A DNA stretch of 10,180 nt. It comes from a bacterium (GTDB lineage: Bacteria; UBP7; UBA6624). Numbering within the stretch: position 1 is the stretch's first letter; the number at the start of each line of letters is the position of its first letter. Of the stretch, positions 2,036 to 10,180 are shown piece after piece. The stretch covers positions 1 through 10,180 of the forward strand of contig JACNFQ010000021.1 of assembly GCA_014384545.1 (NCBI GenBank), read 5' to 3'. Under the pieces are notes generated by a model that was not told the DNA's origin, ran no database searches, and saw only the letters and a program-made list of their open reading frames with translations. A program made the position numbers and the translations under genes.

Positions 2036-2070
2036 AAGTTTATCCTAATGGGATTGCGGATGGGGGGCAA
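2036..2070 (-). promoter_or_regulatory. Predicted promoter of the deacetylase-like gene (leaderless or near-leaderless)
   Basis: On the minus strand TTGCCC (2070-2065), a 17-bp spacer and TAGGAT (2047-2042) are followed by 6 nt and the GTG start at 2035. The spacing fits a sigma-70 type -35/-10 pair with transcription starting at or next to the start codon. The AGGA inside TAGGAT lies 7 nt from GTG and could instead act as a Shine-Dalgarno, so the two readings cannot be separated here. The 53-bp gap after the upstream small gene shows no terminator hairpin, so read-through from the rmuC operon is also possible. Confidence 0.5.
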
Positions 2071-2088
2071 CTAGGCGTGTGCTCGTTA

Positions 2089-2319
2089 TCACTGTTTCTT
2101 GGGGGGGTTGCCTAGGTGCCACTTTCCGCAGTAAAGGCATTTGTAATGGTTGACTCGGTGGCCACGCTTATCCCACATCATTTCAGCCATCTTCTTCGCT
2201 TTCGCCTTGCTGGAATAGGCGCGTTTCTTGCCACACATCCGTTTCTTATGTCTTGCCGAATTTTTGCTATGGGGGGTCTCTCCCTTTCCTTTGGGCGAGG
2301 AAGAGTCCTTTGGGGTCAA
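2089..2319 (-). CDS. Small basic zinc-ribbon-like protein, 76 aa
   Basis: This is a 76-residue, strongly basic protein. A Ser/Lys/Pro-rich N-tail precedes a module from about C29 to L69: C29, then a Lys-rich YSSKAKAK helix-like segment, then C61-x2-C64-G-x-W67-H68-L69. C29, C61, C64 and H68 could make one CCCH zinc site (inference). The same pattern, with Cys-Gly-x-Trp-His-Leu at the end, occupies residues 18-59 of the protein encoded just upstream, so the two are paralogous modules. It resembles small uncharacterised proteins common in phages and actinobacteria that end the module in a CG-W-H-L motif; that comparison is from memory. The TTG start overlaps the upstream stop (TTGA), which favours translational coupling; no good Shine-Dalgarno is visible. 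An internal ATG at codon 28 would lose the tail but keep C29. A role in nucleic-acid binding is inferred only from charge and the putative zinc site. Confidence 0.6.
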   Translation of the reverse strand: MTPKDSSSPKGKGETPHSKNSARHKKRMCGKKRAYSSKAKAKKMAEMMWDKRGHRVNHYKCLYCGKWHLGNPPKKQ

Positions 2320-2819
2320 CCCGAAAAAGGTCTCTTACCGCAGGCTTTTAGGCACCTCTGATGTCCCAACACCAAATTCCCCACCCGATTACGCCCACCC
2401 TCCCTTGGCAATACGACAAAATCAAAGAAGATGTACCCTGGGTGGGTCCTGTCTAAGATCTTCCTATTCAAATGCTCCGAACAGACTGGACAATCCTCTC
2501 CATACTTAGAGAAAAGCTTGGTGATGCGCCGTGTACGCAACCGTCTCTTTCTCTTTTCACCCTCAGTTTTTGGGGGGATATACTTGAACTTATTCGCATC
2601 TCTTGCTTCCCACTTCTCTTTCTCTCCCTTGTAGTTCCTCCACAAGTGCCAATAACCGCAAGAACATTCGTAAGCCTCTAGTCTACCCGGGTAATCGCTG
2701 TGGAAAAACTCCCTTCTCTTTCGGGCTGCTGCCTTGGAACGGTATTTTCTCTTCCAGGGTGTGGGGCAGTTCTGTCGACTCGGTTTGCCTTTGCCCTTCT
2801 TCCCGATTGATGCACTCAC
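2316..2819 (-). CDS. Zinc-ribbon plus degenerate HNH-domain protein, 167 aa
   Basis: The N-terminal module (C18 to L59) has KRKYRSKAAARKRR followed by C52-x-C54-G-x-W57-H58-L59, matching the neighbouring 76-aa protein. A very basic segment (about 84-101) links it to an HNH-type domain: C110-x2-C113, D133-F134-V-V, G141-G142, N144, N148-L-V, H153-x2-C156. The framework (Cys pair, D-x-V-V, GG, N..NLV, second metal-binding pair) is that of HNH endonucleases. However, the catalytic His after the Asp is F134, and the Asn or His usually after the last Cys is L157. Only the middle Asn (N148) remains, so cleavage activity is doubtful and a DNA-binding role is more likely (inference). The GTG start shares one base with the rmuC stop (TAGTG), and a GAGGAG Shine-Dalgarno lies 8 nt upstream inside rmuC. 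It is therefore co-expressed with rmuC. Confidence 0.65.
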   Translation of the reverse strand: MSASIGKKGKGKPSRQNCPTPWKRKYRSKAAARKRREFFHSDYPGRLEAYECSCGYWHLWRNYKGEKEKWEARDANKFKYIPPKTEGEKRKRRLRTRRITKLFSKYGEDCPVCSEHLNRKILDRTHPGYIFFDFVVLPREGGRNRVGNLVLGHQRCLKACGKRPFSG

Positions 2820-4039
2820 TATTGGGGCTCCTCCTCGTCATCCTCCCCTTCCTGACACGCCAAGCCCTCGGGGAGGCTCTTCGTAGCTTGAACACCAAGT
2901 CTCTTGAGTTTCTCCACTTGCCCCACGAGATTACCCTGCCCCGTCTTGAGCTGTCCAAATGCCTTGTCAAGCGCCACTTGGGCTTTGCCCAATCGAGCCC
3001 CTACTTCAAGAAGGCTCTCCGCAAAGAGAACAAACTTGTCGTACAACATCCCACCCCTCTTCGCAATCTCTCGCGCATTTTGGCTTTGATCTTCTTGCCT
3101 CCAGGCTGTCTCCACGGTGCGCAGCAACGCCAATATAGTGCCGGGACACGCCATGACGATATTCTGGGCTAGCCCCAGTTGGTACAACGAATCATCCGCA
3201 CTGATCGCCTCAATGTATGCGGATTCGGGAGCGACAAACATCACCACAAAATCAAGCGTCCTTACCCCATCAGCTAACTCATACCTCTTCTTGCCTAGTC
3301 CCTTTAGGTGGTTTCGCATTGAGGTTAAGTGTCGACCAAATGCTTCTTCTCGTTCCCGATCGCCAGTCGCCTTCGTGTATTCAAGGTACGCCGTCATGGA
3401 GACCTTGGAGTCGATGAGAATCTGTCGCCCGTGAGGCAAATGAACGATGACATCGGGGCGGAGGTTTCTCTCTCCAGTTTCGGGGTTCTTGAGCCCTCCC
3501 TGTTTGGTATACTGACGACCCTCTTGGAGTCCTGCCATTTCTAGAAGGCTCTCTAAGACCATTTGCCCCCACTCGCCTTGGGCTGAAGTCTGCCCCGAGA
3601 GGGCGTTGGTCAAACCCTGCGTCTCTTTTTGGAGAAGAGCAGAGAGATCCGAAAGCCCCTTCATCTTCTCCTTGAGAACTTCCCTCGATTTTTCGCCCTC
3701 GGAGTGGGTCTCGTCCACACGCTTGCGGAAACCCTCAAGATCTCTTGTTAGGGGATTTAGGAGATTGCCGAGTCGCTCTTCTAGATCTTTGCGAGATTCA
3801 CCCAAGTCACCCTTCGTTTTCTCCCGAAACCCTTCCAGTGCCTCGTTAGCAATTTGCTTAAGTATAGCCTGGGAACCCTCTTGGTTCTCTGTAATGCTCT
3901 CCAGTCTTAGTTCTGCCCTTTGACAGTCATGGCGCGCCCTCTCTTCCTTCTCAAGCAACTCCTTTTTTTCCTTTTGAGAAGACCACCCCACCAAGAATGC
4001 TCCTAATGCCAATCCCACCAGTAGATAGAGGAACTCCAT
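2819..4039 (-). CDS. rmuC: DNA recombination protein RmuC homologue
   Basis: This 406-aa protein has RmuC architecture: an N-terminal membrane segment (about 3-18), a long charged coiled coil (about 22-145), then the RmuC domain (about 155-385). Diagnostic features are the GGLKNPETGERNLRPD stretch (181-196) and the ILIDSKVSM strand (207-215), where D196, D210 and K212 fit a PD-(D/E)xK nuclease-fold active site. LDFVVMFVAPESAYIEA (262-278) and the A-W-R-Q-E segment near 312-316 are also typical. The family is known from E. coli as limiting DNA inversion and short-repeat rearrangement; its biochemical activity is still poorly defined. The C-terminus is an acidic tail (EDDEEE). The ATG at 4039 has no Shine-Dalgarno but has TAAGAT 7 nt upstream. 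It heads an operon with the two zinc-ribbon genes, each overlapping its predecessor. Confidence 0.93.
   Translation of the reverse strand: MEFLYLLVGLALGAFLVGWSSQKEKKELLEKEERARHDCQRAELRLESITENQEGSQAILKQIANEALEGFREKTKGDLGESRKDLEERLGNLLNPLTRDLEGFRKRVDETHSEGEKSREVLKEKMKGLSDLSALLQKETQGLTNALSGQTSAQGEWGQMVLESLLEMAGLQEGRQYTKQGGLKNPETGERNLRPDVIVHLPHGRQILIDSKVSMTAYLEYTKATGDREREEAFGRHLTSMRNHLKGLGKKRYELADGVRTLDFVVMFVAPESAYIEAISADDSLYQLGLAQNIVMACPGTILALLRTVETAWRQEDQSQNAREIAKRGGMLYDKFVLFAESLLEVGARLGKAQVALDKAFGQLKTGQGNLVGQVEKLKRLGVQATKSLPEGLACQEGEDDEEEPQ
2828..2836 (-). promoter_or_regulatory. Shine-Dalgarno for the HNH-like gene inside the 3' end of rmuC
   Basis: The GAGGAGGAG sequence, which encodes the Glu run near the end of RmuC, sits 8 nt before the GTG at 2819. 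It is the clearest ribosome binding site in the window. It supports GTG as the start and translation of this gene from the rmuC message rather than from its own leaderless promoter. Confidence 0.7.
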
Positions 4040-4052
4040 AAGTTATATCTTA
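4040..4052 (-). promoter_or_regulatory. Predicted -10 box of rmuC, leaderless spacing
   Basis: TAAGAT (4052-4047) ends 7 nt before the rmuC ATG, and no Shine-Dalgarno is present in the 20 nt upstream. No convincing -35 is seen 16-18 bp further up (a C-run lies there). The 126-bp gap between the DUF502 stop and this site holds no recognisable terminator hairpin or other gene. Confidence 0.5.
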
Positions 4053-4165
4053 CAACTGGATGGGGGGGATGCCCGTTCTTCGTTTGTCTCTCACCTAGGA
4101 GATGGATGTTTGGTGACGTGTGGTGGCGTTGGGTTTACACTCCAATCTCACAGTCTAGCCAATAA

Positions 4166-4795
4166 CTAGCTTTTCTTGATCTTGGATATCTCACCTGTAT
4201 GGTCTATAGGGAAAGAGTCTGGTGTTGCTATCCCTAAAGAGAGAACAGCTTGCATCCCTTCCTCAATGGTCCAGCCGGGATCTCGCACTTTTCGTTCTTC
4301 CACAAAAACGACCCAGCCCGTAGCGGGGTTAGGAGGAATGGGAATAAAGCACTTTAGGAGTTTTTGCCCAGAGATATTATCCTGCACTTCGCCCGAAACG
4401 AATCCCACAGTCCATTGGTCGTCTCCCAAATAGGGGACGAGAACGGGGCGTTCAAAAGCTCTCCTCTCTTCAGGGGAGAGATGTTTGGCCAATTGCTTCC
4501 CTACTTTCCATGTTGTGCCCACAATCGGAATGCGCTCTGTCAATCTGTCTAAGAGCATCATCACACTCTTTCCCAGTAGATTGCTAGCGAGCAAACCCAC
4601 AAAATAGAGAACCGTTATAAGTGCAAGGAGTCCCAACCCTGGAATCCTGTCAAAAAGTTCAGGACCCAAGGAACGGACGGCTCGGTCGATGGCGACATAG
4701 GTCATCTTGACTACCCAACCCACCAACGCCAGTGGAATCAGAGTAAGAAGTCCCCTTAGTACATAACTCTTGAAATGGACACCCAACCGTTTCAC
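4166..4795 (-). CDS. DUF502 family membrane protein
   Basis: This 209-aa protein has two membrane helices near the N-terminus (about 13-33 and 52-73) and a soluble C-terminal part. Family signatures are the R14-G-L-L-T-L-I-P start of helix 1, the ERIPIVGTTWKVGKQ stretch (87-101), corresponding to the conserved IP-V---Y---KQ segment, and the PNPATGWVVFV stretch (155-165), corresponding to the PNP-(S/T)G motif. DUF502 proteins are found in many diderm bacteria, and no biochemical function is established. The GTG at 4795 starts 35 bp after the dsbD stop. The nearby ATG at 4803 is out of frame and closes after three codons. TAAAAT with a TTGCCC -35 lies just upstream, so the gene may be transcribed alone as well as with dsbD. 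Confidence 0.88.
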   Translation of the reverse strand: MKRLGVHFKSYVLRGLLTLIPLALVGWVVKMTYVAIDRAVRSLGPELFDRIPGLGLLALITVLYFVGLLASNLLGKSVMMLLDRLTERIPIVGTTWKVGKQLAKHLSPEERRAFERPVLVPYLGDDQWTVGFVSGEVQDNISGQKLLKCFIPIPPNPATGWVVFVEERKVRDPGWTIEEGMQAVLSLGIATPDSFPIDHTGEISKIKKS

Positions 4796-4830
4796 AGGAC
4801 CATTTTACTCTGCCACGGGCAAAAGGGCAA
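4796..4830 (-). promoter_or_regulatory. Predicted promoter of the DUF502 gene
   Basis: TTGCCC (4830-4825), a 17-bp spacer and TAAAAT (4807-4802) are followed by 6 nt and the GTG at 4795. The -35 sequence and spacer length are identical to those of the deacetylase-like gene promoter. No Shine-Dalgarno is present, which fits a leaderless transcript. The promoter occupies almost exactly the short gap after dsbD. Confidence 0.55.
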
Positions 4831-6348
4831 CTACCACTTCTCTAACGCTTCAACGATCTCCTCTACACCAAACTCCCCTTCGTGAATGAAGGTCGCTGGT
4901 TGGTCGGGATAGGGTACAACGATCAATGCGGGCACTCCATTCACACCATACTTCTCTCTCAACGCCCTTTCGTCTTCGCTCTCTTCGGTCAAATCGACGG
5001 TCACGAAGTCCCAACCCTCCAACACTTCCTGGACGGTTGGGTCGGTCAAGACATTCCTCTTTATACCCCAACAGGGAATACACCACCTAGCAGAAATATA
5101 ATAAACTGTAGCACCTAAAGGAGGAGGAACAGTGCCCTCTCCGGTATCAACCCGAGCCCACCCCAAGAACGCAGCATACCCCAAAAGGGCAACACCCATG
5201 AACTTCTTGAGCCTCATCAACCATGCTCCACCCTTTGGCAACTGAGCCCCAGCGACCGCAAATCCGAGCAAGGGGAGAGACATCCCCAACCCCAAAGTCC
5301 CAAATAGGAGCAAGCCCTCCGACAGACTTCCACTCGCTGCAGCAGCACCCGATGCACTCGCCAAGACGGGAGCCGTACAGGGGGCAGCGGCGACGCCAAG
5401 AGCTGCCCCCATACCGACTTTACCCCGTCCGCGCAACCAATCTGCTGCGTGGGAGAGTCCTGTCCCTGGGTGGGGGGTCCACCCTGTCAGCATGACCACG
5501 CCCATCACCCCAAACAAGAGAACCAACCCCCACCCCACCCACTCACTTTGGAGCACTGCTCCCGCTACCAACCCCAAACTCGCTGCCACCCCGCCCACCA
5601 CGGCGTATGAACCCACCAAACCGAATACAAAAGGAATCCCCCCTTTCAATGCTCCCCACCCCTTGTTTCCATCAGACAACGAAAGAAGAATAATAGGGAG
5701 AATGGGATAGATACATGGCGAAAAAGCTAGAGCCAACCCTGCTAAGAATAGAACCCAAAGACTGGGGGCAACCGTGCGATTTACCCCTGCCACCTGAGAG
5801 TGGTTATCTTCATCATCAACGGGAATCTGAGGGGGCATCTCCTCACTCTTGCCACTTTGATGGGGCAGAAGAGTCTCGGACATCCCAACGGCGTCTGGCG
5901 ACCATTCCAAGGCTCCCGTTTCCACTTCTAGAGATGTGGGGGGGAAACAGACCCTATCGGTACACGCTTGAAACTCCAGTGTACCAAGAACGGCTGAAGA
6001 CTCTTCCACCACCACACCGTTGACAATCAGGACAACTTCACCTTCATATACCAAGACAGGATCGTCCGACCAGCCAAAGCGAAGAGATACGGGCTTGGGA
6101 TACTGGACTTTGCCCCAATCCACAGCTCCTTCAGAAGGCGAGAACAAAGTAGGCACAAGGAAGTCATCTAATGGCTTCTCCCCATTGATGTGCCAGCCCT
6201 CGGGCAAATCAATGATGATCTCCCAAGAGACCTCCATGCCTATTCTCGCAGGCTGAGGATGGAGAAAGCCAATCGCTCTCACCTCTTCATCCTGTCCTGG
6301 AAAACCCCCTCCTCCCCATAATGTCAACGCGAAAAGAAGATGAACCAT
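4831..6348 (-). CDS. dsbD: Thiol:disulfide interchange protein DsbD, compact form
   Basis: DsbD passes electrons from cytoplasmic thioredoxin across the membrane to periplasmic thiol-reducing proteins. All three parts are present in 505 aa. A short signal segment (about 1-17) leads into an N-terminal domain (about 25-150) with its C129-x4-C134 redox pair. The membrane part has C212 in F-S-P-C-I-Y-P and C324 in A-A-P-C-T-A-P, the two conserved intramembrane Cys. A C-terminal thioredoxin-like domain (about 411-505) has W422-C423-I-P-C426 and the cis-Pro context G-V-P (471-473). I count about six membrane helices (197-222, 239-262, 271-290, 310-338, 343-367, 383-399), against eight in E. coli DsbD; the two helices normally just before the thioredoxin domain appear to be absent. 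An even number still leaves both soluble domains outside. The DUF502 gene follows 35 bp downstream. Confidence 0.93.
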   Translation of the reverse strand: MVHLLFALTLWGGGGFPGQDEEVRAIGFLHPQPARIGMEVSWEIIIDLPEGWHINGEKPLDDFLVPTLFSPSEGAVDWGKVQYPKPVSLRFGWSDDPVLVYEGEVVLIVNGVVVEESSAVLGTLEFQACTDRVCFPPTSLEVETGALEWSPDAVGMSETLLPHQSGKSEEMPPQIPVDDEDNHSQVAGVNRTVAPSLWVLFLAGLALAFSPCIYPILPIILLSLSDGNKGWGALKGGIPFVFGLVGSYAVVGGVAASLGLVAGAVLQSEWVGWGLVLLFGVMGVVMLTGWTPHPGTGLSHAADWLRGRGKVGMGAALGVAAAPCTAPVLASASGAAAASGSLSEGLLLFGTLGLGMSLPLLGFAVAGAQLPKGGAWLMRLKKFMGVALLGYAAFLGWARVDTGEGTVPPPLGATVYYISARWCIPCWGIKRNVLTDPTVQEVLEGWDFVTVDLTEESEDERALREKYGVNGVPALIVVPYPDQPATFIHEGEFGVEEIVEALEKW

Positions 6349-6360
6349 ATGGGTATTATC
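6349..6360 (-). promoter_or_regulatory. Predicted -10 box of dsbD
   Basis: GATAAT (6360-6355, one mismatch from TATAAT) ends 6 nt before the dsbD ATG at 6348. There is no Shine-Dalgarno, so the spacing again predicts an almost leaderless message. No clear -35 is seen. This is the only lead gene whose hexamer departs from TANNNT at the first base. Confidence 0.45.
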
Positions 6361-6370
6361 AACTACGGAT

Positions 6371-6382
6371 TAGACTATCACC
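6371..6382 (+). promoter_or_regulatory. Predicted -10 box of the DUF4139 gene
   Basis: TAGACT (6371-6376) ends 6 nt before the ATG at 6383. An alternative TATTAT (6354-6359) would give a leader of about 17 nt; it overlaps the dsbD GATAAT on the other strand. Both genes are driven from a gap of only 34 bp between start codons. Confidence 0.4.
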
Positions 6383-7786
6383 ATGACAAAGATCACATAC
6401 CTTATACTCTTAGCTTGGATCGTCGTTGCTCCGACGCGTTTAGAGTCTGTAGATGCTCCTGTCCAATCGACTGCGCTCACCCTATACAACGATGGCACAG
6501 GATTCGTGAGACAAGTGCTAGAAGGACGTCTCCCTGTAGGAGATGATGTGAACTGGGTTCTGTCTGATTTGGCGGCGACACTGGAAGCACCCACCGTGCG
6601 GTTGGTCTCCCTTTCCCATCCGGGTTCCTTTTTTATTCGGGAGCAGAATTTTGAATATGACTTGGTCAATTCCCAGAAGATTCTTGACAGATATCTGGGT
6701 CAAACGGTAGGTTTTGATATTGAGAATCGTGCCACAGGGGATCTTTCTCGGGTAGAAGGAACGATTCTCTCTACAGCAGGGGCGGGTGTATACGAGATTG
6801 ATGGAGAGATACATATCGGTGCTCCGGGTCGTCTCATCCTTCCCTCCCTACCCGGTGGGCTGGCATTGCGTCCCCAACTCAGATGGAGACTTGCCAATGA
6901 GGAGAGGAGCGTTCAAGATCTCCTCCTCTCTTACCTCATGAGTGGGACATCGTGGTGGGCAGATTACACGCTCCATCTTGGAAAGGAAGGAATCGCCGAA
7001 CTTGATGGCTGGGTGACCCTCCAAAACGACTCAGGCACCAGTTACCCCGATGCTGAAATCAAATTGGTTGCCGGTTCTATCCATCGAGCCCCCAAAGCAC
7101 CTCAAGAGCATATGAGGAGGGGTATGGTCGCCGATTCGATGATGATGGAAGTCATAGAAGAGTCTTTCTTTGAGTATCACCTATACCGTCTCCCCTCACC
7201 CACCAATCTCCCCGACCGCAGTCTCAAGCAGGTGCGCTTCTTGACCGGAGATTCCGTTCCCTACCAGACCGTCTATACGCTCTCTAACCCGTGGGGTTAT
7301 GGTGGTCCTTCTACCGAAGCAGGCGATCCTGCTCGAGTCCCCATTGCTGTCAGTATCGCCTTTAGGAACGATGAAGAGAGTAGCCTAGGACTCCCCCTTC
7401 CCGCAGGGACTTTGCGGATGTTCATGGAAGATAGTCGAGGAGAGGCTCAGTTAGTCGGTGAAGACAATTTAGGGCATACGCCCAAGAATGAAGAAATCTC
7501 TCTCCAAGCCGGAGAGGCTTTTGATCTTGTGGGGGAGATTCGCACCCTAGACTTTACGAAACTCTACGCCAATCGAACGAAGACCGATGTGGAGGTGCGG
7601 GTTAGAAACCACAAGGAAGAAGGAACCGCAGTGGTTAGGTATCGAGCTCGCCTTTGGGGGGATGTGACACTTTCTAGCACTTCGTCCATTCAACTGGAAC
7701 CCCTTGGGAATGGATGGTACGAAGCCCTCATCCCCATAGATGCCGGTCAGGAATCGATCCTTACCTACTCAATCCTCACCAAATAG
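6383..7786 (+). CDS. Exported DUF4139 domain protein
   Basis: This 467-aa protein has a signal peptide (about 1-23: K3, hydrophobic core 5-16). The mature N-terminal part is beta-rich, opening with LTLYNDGTGFVRQ (32-44). The DUF4139 hallmark comes next: YLMSGTSWWADYTLHL (184-199), GWVTLQNDSGTSYPDAEIKLVAG (209-231), and an aromatic FFEYHLYRLP (262-271) after a Met-rich loop (about 244-258). The last two thirds carry several predicted beta strands ending in the conserved R-x-R-N-H (405-410) and G-W-Y-E (444-447) regions. Bacterial DUF4139 proteins are usually predicted secreted or cell-surface proteins; their function is not established. The gene is divergent from dsbD and ends inside the 3' end of the convergent helicase gene. 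A role linked to DsbD-assisted folding is not supported by cysteines: I see none in the mature protein. Confidence 0.85.
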   Translation: MTKITYLILLAWIVVAPTRLESVDAPVQSTALTLYNDGTGFVRQVLEGRLPVGDDVNWVLSDLAATLEAPTVRLVSLSHPGSFFIREQNFEYDLVNSQKILDRYLGQTVGFDIENRATGDLSRVEGTILSTAGAGVYEIDGEIHIGAPGRLILPSLPGGLALRPQLRWRLANEERSVQDLLLSYLMSGTSWWADYTLHLGKEGIAELDGWVTLQNDSGTSYPDAEIKLVAGSIHRAPKAPQEHMRRGMVADSMMMEVIEESFFEYHLYRLPSPTNLPDRSLKQVRFLTGDSVPYQTVYTLSNPWGYGGPSTEAGDPARVPIAVSIAFRNDEESSLGLPLPAGTLRMFMEDSRGEAQLVGEDNLGHTPKNEEISLQAGEAFDLVGEIRTLDFTKLYANRTKTDVEVRVRNHKEEGTAVVRYRARLWGDVTLSSTSSIQLEPLGNGWYEALIPIDAGQESILTYSILTK

Positions 7787-9746
7787 GGCGGGAAGGGCGG
7801 GTTCGACCCACACGTTCCACAAAGTCCTTTCCTTCAGTTAGGAATCGGCTGGGGCGACTGATGATTGACCCTCCCCCTCCCTGCCCCGCCCCACCCCACT
7901 CCTGCCCTAGGAGGGGGTAAGTAAAGATGAGCTGACGCCTCGCTCGCGTCGCTGCTACATAGAAGATGCGGCGTTCTTCTTCTTCTCCTTCTTCATCCTT
8001 GAGTCCCATGGGGCTTGGGAAGGCGTCCTCGCTGGTGCGAACGACCCAAACGAGGTCCCATTCCAACCCTTTTGATCGGTGAATCGTAGAGAGGACCAGC
8101 CTGTCATCAGTTCCTCCCTTCAATAGATCCGTTCCGTAAAGTTCGCCCAACAAAATGAGTTCGCTAAGAAAAGCAGACAGAGTCTTATAACCATCCGCCA
8201 AGATACCCAGTTGGTCTAAGTCTTGTAGGCGGTTTCTAGGGTTCTGGTATTTCGTTTCAAGATACTCACTGTAGACACCACGCGCGACCATTCGCACCAA
8301 GTCCCCTAGGGGTTTCTTATTCTTGTGAGCACGATGGAGATCAGCGATGTCTGATTCGAACCGCATCCATGTACTGCGAACAGAGGGAGGCAGAACAGCT
8401 GTTGATGCCCCATCAGCCATCTTCTCAAAAGGGCGTTCTTCTCCCTTGACCCAAGCCCGCACTTTTGATGCCCGTTTTGGTCCCACCCCTGGACACATCC
8501 CCAACACCCTCGTCCACGCCACTTCATCATCGGGATTCTGGAGAATCTTCAGGAAGGCAACGACATCCTTCACATGGGCCTGCTCAAAAAACCGCAACCC
8601 ACTGCGCACTTCGTAAGGAATGTTCCGCTTGAGCAAATCTGCCTGAAGGAACGTACTATGGCTATGGCTTCGGTACAGAATCGCCATTCTCTCCAAGGGT
8701 GTTCCAGCTTGATGGGCATCGACAACTTGTCGTGCAATCCATGCCGCTTCTCCCATCCCATTGGGAAGAGGCTGCACTTTAGGGCGTGGTCCGTGCGTAG
8801 GGCGTGCGGGGCGTAGGGTCTTGTGGTATTGTCCAGGGTTGTTCAGGATCACAGCATTGGCTAAGTCAAGAATCTGCTTGGTTGATCGGTAGTTCTCTTC
8901 TAACCTGTGGATTTTGGCTTCAGGATACCTATCTTGAAAGCCAAGAATGTTCTGGTAATGAGCCCCCCTAAACGCATAGATGCTCTGACAATCGTCTCCT
9001 ACGACCATCAACCTCTTCCCATTCGCTTGGGCAATGCGCTCAACGATCTCCCCTTGGGCGGTATTCGTATCTTGATACTCATCAACCAATACTTCTGTAA
9101 ATCTCCTGCCCATCTCTGCCCATGTGTCCTTGTCGTCTAACAACCGAAGCCAATATATGAGGAGATCGTCATAATCGAGACAGTTTGCCGCCCTCTTTCG
9201 TTCTTCATAAGCCGTTCGTACAGATTCGACCTTCTCGATATAATCAACAGCAAGAGGGACTTTGTCCGCCAGACTTCTCTCTAGGGAGCAACCTCGATTA
9301 AAAGCGTAAGAGAAGATATTTACGAGGACACGAGGAGCCGGAAAGAAATGATCCAGTTTTCCCAAAGTCTCACGCACGGTAGCTCGGACCAAATCTCTTT
9401 GATCTTCGCTATCTAGAATGGAATATGTGGTATCTAGCCCCACCACCTTTCCGTCTTGACGAATCAACCTATTGGCAATGGAATGGAAAGTTCCACCCCA
9501 CAATCCTTGAACTTCGGGACCCATCAATCCCCCAGCTTGGGTCATCATGGAGCTCGCCGCCTTGTTCGTAAATGTCAAAAGAAGAATCTTTGAGGGGCTA
9601 ACACCTTGGTCAACGAGCCACGCTGCACGATAGGTAAGTGTTCGGGTTTTTCCTGTTCCAGCACCGGCAATCACCAGATGCATACCCCTTTCAGCCGTAA
9701 CTGCCCCCCTTTGGGCGTCATTCAAGCCAGAAAGATCAAGAACCAT
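7776..9746 (-). CDS. uvrD: UvrD/PcrA/Rep-family superfamily 1 DNA helicase
   Basis: This is a 3'-5' SF1A helicase of 656 aa with all motifs intact: Q-motif LNDAQ (8-12), Walker A AGAGTGKT (27-34), motif Ia LTFTNKAA (57-64), motif II VDEYQDTN (221-228), motif III GDDCQSIYAFRGA (250-262), motif IV ENYRST (284-289), motif V STIHRSKGLEWD (553-564), and motif VI VAATRARR (597-604). Such enzymes use ATP to unwind DNA in repair and replication restart. It is shorter than UvrD or PcrA (about 720 aa): after motif VI there is only a Gly-rich linker (about 618-626) and a short tail, so the C-terminal Tudor-like domain that contacts RNA polymerase is absent, making it Rep-like in size. I start it at ATG 9746 because the Q-motif lies just after it and a -10 box lies 7 nt before it. 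The 32-residue upstream extension to 9842 is Ser/Phe-rich and covers the divergent gene's start. Confidence 0.93.
   Translation of the reverse strand: MVLDLSGLNDAQRGAVTAERGMHLVIAGAGTGKTRTLTYRAAWLVDQGVSPSKILLLTFTNKAASSMMTQAGGLMGPEVQGLWGGTFHSIANRLIRQDGKVVGLDTTYSILDSEDQRDLVRATVRETLGKLDHFFPAPRVLVNIFSYAFNRGCSLERSLADKVPLAVDYIEKVESVRTAYEERKRAANCLDYDDLLIYWLRLLDDKDTWAEMGRRFTEVLVDEYQDTNTAQGEIVERIAQANGKRLMVVGDDCQSIYAFRGAHYQNILGFQDRYPEAKIHRLEENYRSTKQILDLANAVILNNPGQYHKTLRPARPTHGPRPKVQPLPNGMGEAAWIARQVVDAHQAGTPLERMAILYRSHSHSTFLQADLLKRNIPYEVRSGLRFFEQAHVKDVVAFLKILQNPDDEVAWTRVLGMCPGVGPKRASKVRAWVKGEERPFEKMADGASTAVLPPSVRSTWMRFESDIADLHRAHKNKKPLGDLVRMVARGVYSEYLETKYQNPRNRLQDLDQLGILADGYKTLSAFLSELILLGELYGTDLLKGGTDDRLVLSTIHRSKGLEWDLVWVVRTSEDAFPSPMGLKDEEGEEEERRIFYVAATRARRQLIFTYPLLGQEWGGAGQGGGGSIISRPSRFLTEGKDFVERVGRTRPSRPIW
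7869..7897 (-). other. Strong G-quadruplex motif in the sense strand of the helicase gene
   Basis: Six runs of 3-5 G separated by only 1-2 nt (G4 T G4 C G4 CA G3 A G5 A G3) lie on the minus strand, which is the helicase coding strand, so the mRNA carries them too. They encode the Gly-rich linker after motif VI, about 90-120 nt before the stop codon. Confidence 0.6.
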
Positions 9747-9762
9747 CCTTAGGATTCTAGGG
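9747..9762. promoter_or_regulatory. Divergent promoter with overlapping -10 boxes (helicase / recombinase)
   Basis: The start codons of the helicase (9746, minus) and recombinase (9763, plus) are 16 bp apart. The plus strand has TAGGAT at 9750-9755, 7 nt before the GTG. The minus strand has TAGAAT at 9759-9754, 7 nt before the ATG. The two hexamers overlap by 2 bp within the near-palindrome TAGGATTCTA. Both spacings predict leaderless messages. On the plus strand the AGGA within TAGGAT could alternatively be a Shine-Dalgarno 8 nt from GTG. Confidence 0.5.
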
Positions 9763-10180
9763 GTGAAAAAGAACGATGTGATCCAAACCGAAGACCTATT
9801 GGTTTCTTTCGTAAACGAACTCCGTTCGGAAGGGAAGAGCAAGGCTACTCTTTTGGCGTATGAAAAAGATGTCTTGGCTTGGCTAGGCGCTAAGGGGCGT
9901 TCTGCCGAGGCGTTGGCAGACCACCTTGCTGCGTTGGGTCTTTCGGGGGTTAGTGGGCGAACGGTTGCGCGTCACGCCTCTGCTCTTAGAAGATGGGCAC
10001 GGTTCTTGACGACTTCTGGCCTTGCTGCAGAGGATTTGGCTCGGTTTGCTGTCAACCCCGAGAAACGTCTCCATCTTCTCACCTTCTTCGGACCTAAACA
10101 GTGGGAGACTAATCTCAACGCCCCTTACCCGTTCATACCCTTGGGCCGTCTCTGCATGCCGAACTTGCCGCTGCTCTACG
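9763..10180 (+). CDS. Tyrosine recombinase, XerC/XerD-like, N-terminal part (runs off window)
   Basis: The plus frame is open from GTG 9763 to the right edge (139 codons). Residues about 8-97 match the SAM-like core-binding domain of Xer-type recombinases: LLVSFVNELRSEGKSKATLLAYEKD-type helix 1, a middle helix with G-V-S-G-R-T-V-A-R-H, then SALRRWARFLTTSGL, closely following the R-h-hS-hR-F-(Y/F) pattern. In the family this domain precedes the catalytic domain with the Arg-His-Arg-Tyr residues, which would lie outside the window, so activity cannot be judged. After about residue 100 the reading becomes unlike the usual linker. The GTG at 9778 is a second in-frame start, but 9763 has the better upstream signals. 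It is divergent from the helicase gene. It could be a chromosomal Xer or a mobile-element integrase; the housekeeping surroundings favour the former weakly. Confidence 0.75.
   Translation, partial: MKKNDVIQTEDLLVSFVNELRSEGKSKATLLAYEKDVLAWLGAKGRSAEALADHLAALGLSGVSGRTVARHASALRRWARFLTTSGLAAEDLARFAVNPEKRLHLLTFFGPKQWETNLNAPYPFIPLGRLCMPNLPLLY

Follow-up and report, generated by a model that had tools for sequence, protein, structure and literature searches.

Hexamers resembling -10 elements directly before start codons suggest leaderless expression of many first genes in a bacterial phylum known from three draft genomes

In Deinococcus, the hexamer TANNNT lies 6 to 7 bp before the open reading frame in about a third of genes, and genes preceded by a Shine-Dalgarno sequence form a second class (PMC12340547). 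Reporter experiments in Deinococcus have shown that this box alone is sufficient for expression, mostly with no -35 element (PMC12340547). In E. coli, Deinococcus promoters reportedly work only once a -35 element is added. A -10 motif adjoining open reading frames and leaderless mRNA had been described earlier for Deinococcota (de Groot et al. 2014, as cited in PMC12340547). A survey of 953 bacteria also found TA-led (leaderless) genes in Actinobacteria and others (PMC3160421). According to the figures quoted in PMC9581028, the leaderless class of GeneMarkS-2 covers ~21.6% of bacterial species and up to 40% of transcripts.

Here we analyze a stretch of DNA of 10,180 nucleotides (the window), which is contig 99 in a 1.39-Mb draft genome (G000) with a completeness of 79% and a GC content of ~52%. 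The phylum of this organism consists of three draft genomes in the genome collection, and therefore G000 is neither Deinococcota nor Actinomycetota in the collection's taxonomy. Its family is shared by two collection genomes only (G001 and G002), both of which are AT-rich and have an RpoB identity of 62-63%, and the remaining genomes listed as its kin have the domain alone in common with it. A 16S rRNA gene was searched for in the draft assemblies of G000, G001 and G002 and was not found.

The preliminary description of the window had placed a -10-like hexamer 6 or 7 nt before the start codons of seven genes, and we located each of the seven hexamers, with its gap and start codon, exactly where it had been placed (Table 1). 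Re-reading also bore out that six of the seven hexamers match TANNNT and that the hexamer of dsbD is off at its first base only. In the window, TANNNT stands at gap 6 or 7 of 2.4% of the 579 ATG and GTG triplets on both strands, and at this local rate the chance of six matches among seven genes is ~1.4e-9. With the decoy rate of lead genes across the genome, which is more generous (13/140, a choice among start codons being permitted), the chance is ~4e-6. The two operon-internal genes carry no box, as had been noted, with the HNH-like gene having the Shine-Dalgarno sequence listed in Table 1 and the small zinc-ribbon ORF (2089-2319) having neither signal.

Table 1. Boxes, related signals and genes in the window, and sigma factor genes of the three genomes (coordinates are those of the window unless a locus is given)
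Feature	Location	Strand	Gap (nt) and start codon	Gene and remarks
-10 box TAGGAT	2042-2047	-	6, GTG (2035)	Polysaccharide-deacetylase-like ORF 2-2035, without Pfam hit
Shine-Dalgarno GAGGAGGAG	2828-2836	-	8, GTG (2819)	Operon-internal HNH-like ORF 2316-2819
-10 box TAAGAT	4047-4052	-	7, ATG (4039)	rmuC 2819-4039 (PF02646)
-10 box TAAAAT	4802-4807	-	6, GTG (4795)	DUF502 gene 4166-4795 (PF04367)
-10-like GATAAT	6355-6360	-	6, ATG (6348)	dsbD 4831-6348 (PF02683); TANNNT mismatch at base 1
-10 box TAGACT	6371-6376	+	6, ATG (6383)	DUF4139-like ORF 6383-7786, without Pfam hit
-10 box TAGAAT	9754-9759	-	7, ATG (9746)	UvrD-type helicase gene 7776-9746; start backed by G001 and G002 orthologs
-10 box TAGGAT	9750-9755	+	7, GTG (9763)	Tyrosine-recombinase gene 9763-window end (PF02899); start backed by G001 ortholog
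Predicted bidirectional leaderless promoter CATCCTTAGGATTCTAGGGGTG	9744-9765			Both -10 boxes within; complete
Primary sigma factor gene	G000 L165:847-2292; G001 L164:1039-2478; G002 L163:1039-2478			Found via RpoD C-terminal match

Pfam hits in the window comprise RmuC, DUF502, DsbD, the UvrD-type helicase and the tyrosine-recombinase N-terminal domain. At a threshold of 0.001, the deacetylase-like, zinc-ribbon, HNH-like and DUF4139 ORFs have no Pfam hit, and therefore these four names were given by reading alone. Only the dsbD/DUF4139 pair (with a spacer of 34 bp) and the helicase/recombinase pair, i.e., four of the seven genes, are certainly first genes because they are divergent, and three of these four have a TANNNT match. 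The deacetylase-like, rmuC and DUF502 genes each follow a same-strand neighbor 35-126 bp upstream, so their label as lead genes is partly based on the box itself.

We then sampled 694 kb of G000, taking gene starts from a coding-potential model that is blind to upstream sequence. With these blind starts, TANNNT begins at position -13 or -12 in 40 of 129 divergent/edge genes compared to ~4.6 expected. The counts are 17 at -13 and 23 at -12, they fall sharply at the neighboring positions, and positions further upstream average 2.3. When near-equal alternative starts were permitted, TANNNT was present in 28 genes at gap 6 and 27 genes at gap 7, with low counts elsewhere. For divergent/edge genes, free-spacing motif discovery by EM from random seeds returned TAGAAT with gaps of 6 and 7 (log-likelihood gain of 204 versus at most 41 in shuffles), and for tight genes (closely packed and operon-internal) it returned GGAG, a Shine-Dalgarno sequence. 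The genome-wide check proposed in the preliminary description, an AT-hexamer peak at -12/-13 split by operon position, therefore gave a positive result in the sampled sequence, and the lack of a TANNNT peak that it had named as counterevidence is the opposite of the strong peak at gap 6/7.

Net of decoy gaps, box carriers account for 38-40% of divergent genes at every score cut-off, 19-24% of same-strand genes with a gap of at least 60 bp and 6-8% of tight genes. The statement that nearly every lead gene is boxed thus describes the window (six of seven) and does not extend to the genome, where about 40% of divergent genes have a box. At these frequencies, it is too strong to call leaderless expression the default for first genes. 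Approximately 60% of divergent genes are without TANNNT at gap 6/7, and some of them are missed because of miscalled starts or a deviating box, as in dsbD. The box is a major mode of first-gene expression alongside Shine-Dalgarno initiation.

A peak of this kind could be produced artificially by in-frame stop codons, by the choice of start codons or by base composition. The TA at gap 6 is in frame, such that TAG or TAA at this place is a stop codon, and start codons were picked by a coding score. However, the out-of-frame gap 7 is equally strong (27 versus 28 genes), the in-frame gaps 3, 9 and 12 lack a comparable peak, and a stop-codon artefact was rejected. The same pipeline found Shine-Dalgarno sequences and no box peak in E. 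coli and in lineages G020 and G024. Furthermore, the peak persists when only ortholog-supported starts are used: the 40 genes concerned have 17 boxes at gaps 6-7 and 0-3 at each other gap. We consider that an artefact has almost no chance of being the explanation. For a Deinococcus gobiensis plasmid, which is GC-rich and for which annotated gene starts were used rather than coding-potential calls, we observed a peak at gaps 5-7 in divergent genes (9/38).

The boxes are also conserved. Among 54 orthologous lead pairs from G000 and a relative, all with alignment-supported starts, both genes are boxed in 12 pairs and neither in 33, with a box in G000 only in six pairs and in the relative only in three (Fisher p 1.6e-5). 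In the AT-rich G001 and G002, TANNNT counts are barely above background and the spacing peak is broader, and EM run de novo found TAGAAT and TANAAT near gaps 6-9.

The commonest of the 53 boxes of divergent/edge genes are TAGAAT (16) and TAGGAT (15), and the best-conserved box positions are T1, A2, A5 and T6. AGGA within TAGGAT had been noted as open to a Shine-Dalgarno reading, and it is conceivable that the hexamers in general are variant Shine-Dalgarno sequences of ordinarily leadered genes. TAGGAT makes up 15 of the 53 boxes, and TAGGA is enriched in tight genes too (19 versus 1.5). Nevertheless, TAGAAT lacks AGGA and is equally frequent at both gaps, which makes it unlikely that TAGGAT acts as a Shine-Dalgarno sequence. 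TACAAT, TAAAAT and TATAAT likewise occur at the same two gaps without a Shine-Dalgarno core, the four conserved positions fit a -10 box and not GGAGG, and real GGAG sites in tight genes are found at loose gaps of 4-10. The occurrence of TAGAAT at equal spacing has already largely refuted this alternative, and we give it very little weight.

We therefore favor, with a probability of about 0.9, the reading that the boxes are -10 elements from which mRNAs would begin at the start codon without a leader and undergo leaderless initiation, with Shine-Dalgarno initiation downstream. In this model, the hexamers would be -10 elements of the primary sigma factor, with a discriminator that extends exactly 6-7 nt up to the start codon. 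Given this discriminator length, RNA polymerase would start on the A or G of ATG or GTG, yielding an mRNA without a 5' leader, and the ribosome would then initiate at the start codon at the 5' end, with no Shine-Dalgarno sequence. Genes further along the same transcript would rely on Shine-Dalgarno initiation. In 18 of the 26 genes with a box at gap 6, the last base before the start codon is T, and a T followed by A or G fits the pyrimidine-purine pattern seen at transcription starts. The start codon is TTG in one of the 46 boxed divergent genes.

Boxed promoters would apparently not need a consensus -35 element. Among 85 promoters, there is no TTGAC at a spacer of 15-19, TTG occurs at background level and TTGACA was not found. 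The -35 search did return a weak CAT-containing motif, which probably reflects the start codon of the divergent neighbor.

A different explanation accepts the boxes as true -10 elements and assigns them to a second, downstream promoter, with most mRNA being leadered and made from a promoter further upstream. Several promoters per bacterial gene are possible, and the presence of a Shine-Dalgarno sequence in 15 of 58 unboxed divergent genes means that leadered transcripts exist in G000. The sigma factor gene itself has a GGGAGG Shine-Dalgarno sequence before its GTG and TATACT further upstream. In contrast, none of the 46 boxed divergent genes has a Shine-Dalgarno sequence, and therefore a leadered transcript of a boxed gene would lack the usual start signal. 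In addition, divergent spacers of 16 bp in the window and of 29, 40 and 43 bp elsewhere are too short, since they cannot fit a leader and a promoter outside the coding sequence of the neighbor. We judge a predominant upstream promoter to be highly improbable.

With the exception of its "default" clause, the leaderless interpretation put forward in the preliminary description agrees with the position-exact genome-wide peak, the operon split, the ortholog conservation and the mutual exclusion of box and Shine-Dalgarno sequence. On this evidence, a large share of first genes are very likely expressed without a leader, although for G000 we infer from sequence where transcription starts, that a leader is missing and that translation is leaderless.

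The pattern in G000 resembles that of Deinococcota in its TANNNT boxes at gap 6-7 (in about a third of the genes of Deinococcota and ~40% of the divergent genes of G000), in the frequent lack of a -35 element and in having Shine-Dalgarno genes as a second class. The two differ in phylum and in box sequence, with TAGAAT and TAGGAT preferred in G000 at ~52% GC and TACACT in Deinococcota. The shortest divergent spacer also differs, being 16 bp in G000 compared to at least 59 bp in the Deinococcus sample. The TA-led genes of PMC3160421 are similar in that a large proportion of genes carry a TA-like signal ~10 bp before the start codon, but that study (2011) covered bacterial genomes complete at the time, whereas the phylum of G000 is known here from three drafts only. 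The mixture in G000, with first genes that are putatively leaderless and internal genes that have Shine-Dalgarno sequences, fits the leaderless class of GeneMarkS-2 and would make G000 a further lineage of the same kind. With three collection genomes in its phylum, G000 would thus extend a known mechanism to a new phylum. An otherwise unstudied phylum thereby joins the bacteria that apparently express many first genes without a leader, and gene callers that assume a Shine-Dalgarno sequence will misplace starts in G000.

Head-to-head gene pairs in this phylum are closely spaced. The median divergent spacer is 118 bp in G000, 58 bp in G001 and 53 bp in G002 versus 212 bp in an E. coli sample and 244 bp in Deinococcus, and single short-spacer values depend on start calls, with both starts being ortholog-supported in few pairs. 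For the helicase and recombinase genes of the window, both starts are ortholog-supported. Their start codons are 16 bp apart (the spacer of the G001 ortholog is 18 bp), and their TAGGAT and TAGAAT boxes overlap by 2 bp. The predicted transcription starts would be 17 bp apart, a geometry that would fit a symmetric bidirectional promoter. Bidirectional promoters of E. coli have shared or overlapping -10 elements with starts ~18 (10, 23) bp apart, 18 bp being the commonest distance (PMC12825309). The predicted promoter in the window would resemble these symmetric promoters in its overlapping boxes and in the distance between its predicted starts (17 bp, close to 18 bp), and would differ from them in that the predicted transcription starts are start codons too; the word "leaderless" is absent from PMC12825309. 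Start codons 16-29 bp apart with both boxes in the spacer were observed at window positions 9744-9765, at G001 L108:4168-4197 and at G000 L007:7134-7168. Such very short divergent spacers offer a clean test of minimal bacterial promoter size.

The primary sigma factor of this phylum has regions 1.1 to 4, and the stretch that reads the -10 element, KGFKFSTYATWWIRQAIT, is intact in all three genomes. Alignment to solved sigma factors breaks between residues 263 and 354, within region 3, where all three genomes carry an insertion of ~90 residues. This insertion, whose first half is rich in basic residues, is conserved in G000, G001 and G002. Among 290 genomes, the three of the phylum aside, a search for homologs of the insertion yielded a single marginal hit, in a short frame that is interrupted, and none that was clear.

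A connection between the insertion and promoters without a -35 element is a guess, and Deinococcus, which has -35-less leaderless promoters of its own, is not known to need such a sigma insertion. A more elaborate scenario, which we think unlikely, is that acquisition of this basic region 3 insertion permits firing from the -10 element alone, that promoters consequently shrank to the box and that one shared symmetric -10 element drives leaderless head-to-head pairs across spacers of 16-30 bp. The insertion offers one specific candidate for what might take the place of -35 contacts.

Two further features of the sigma factor and its gene were observed. In G000 only, six extra residues (~445-451) lie right before the region 4.2 stretch TRERVRQIE. 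The sigma factor gene and a gene for a membrane protein (UbiA-like by eye) are divergently oriented in both genera (G000 and G001), and the spacers between the two genes hold a palindrome, AGTATACT in G000 (L165:2293-2330) and GAGTATACTC in G001 (L164:988-1038).
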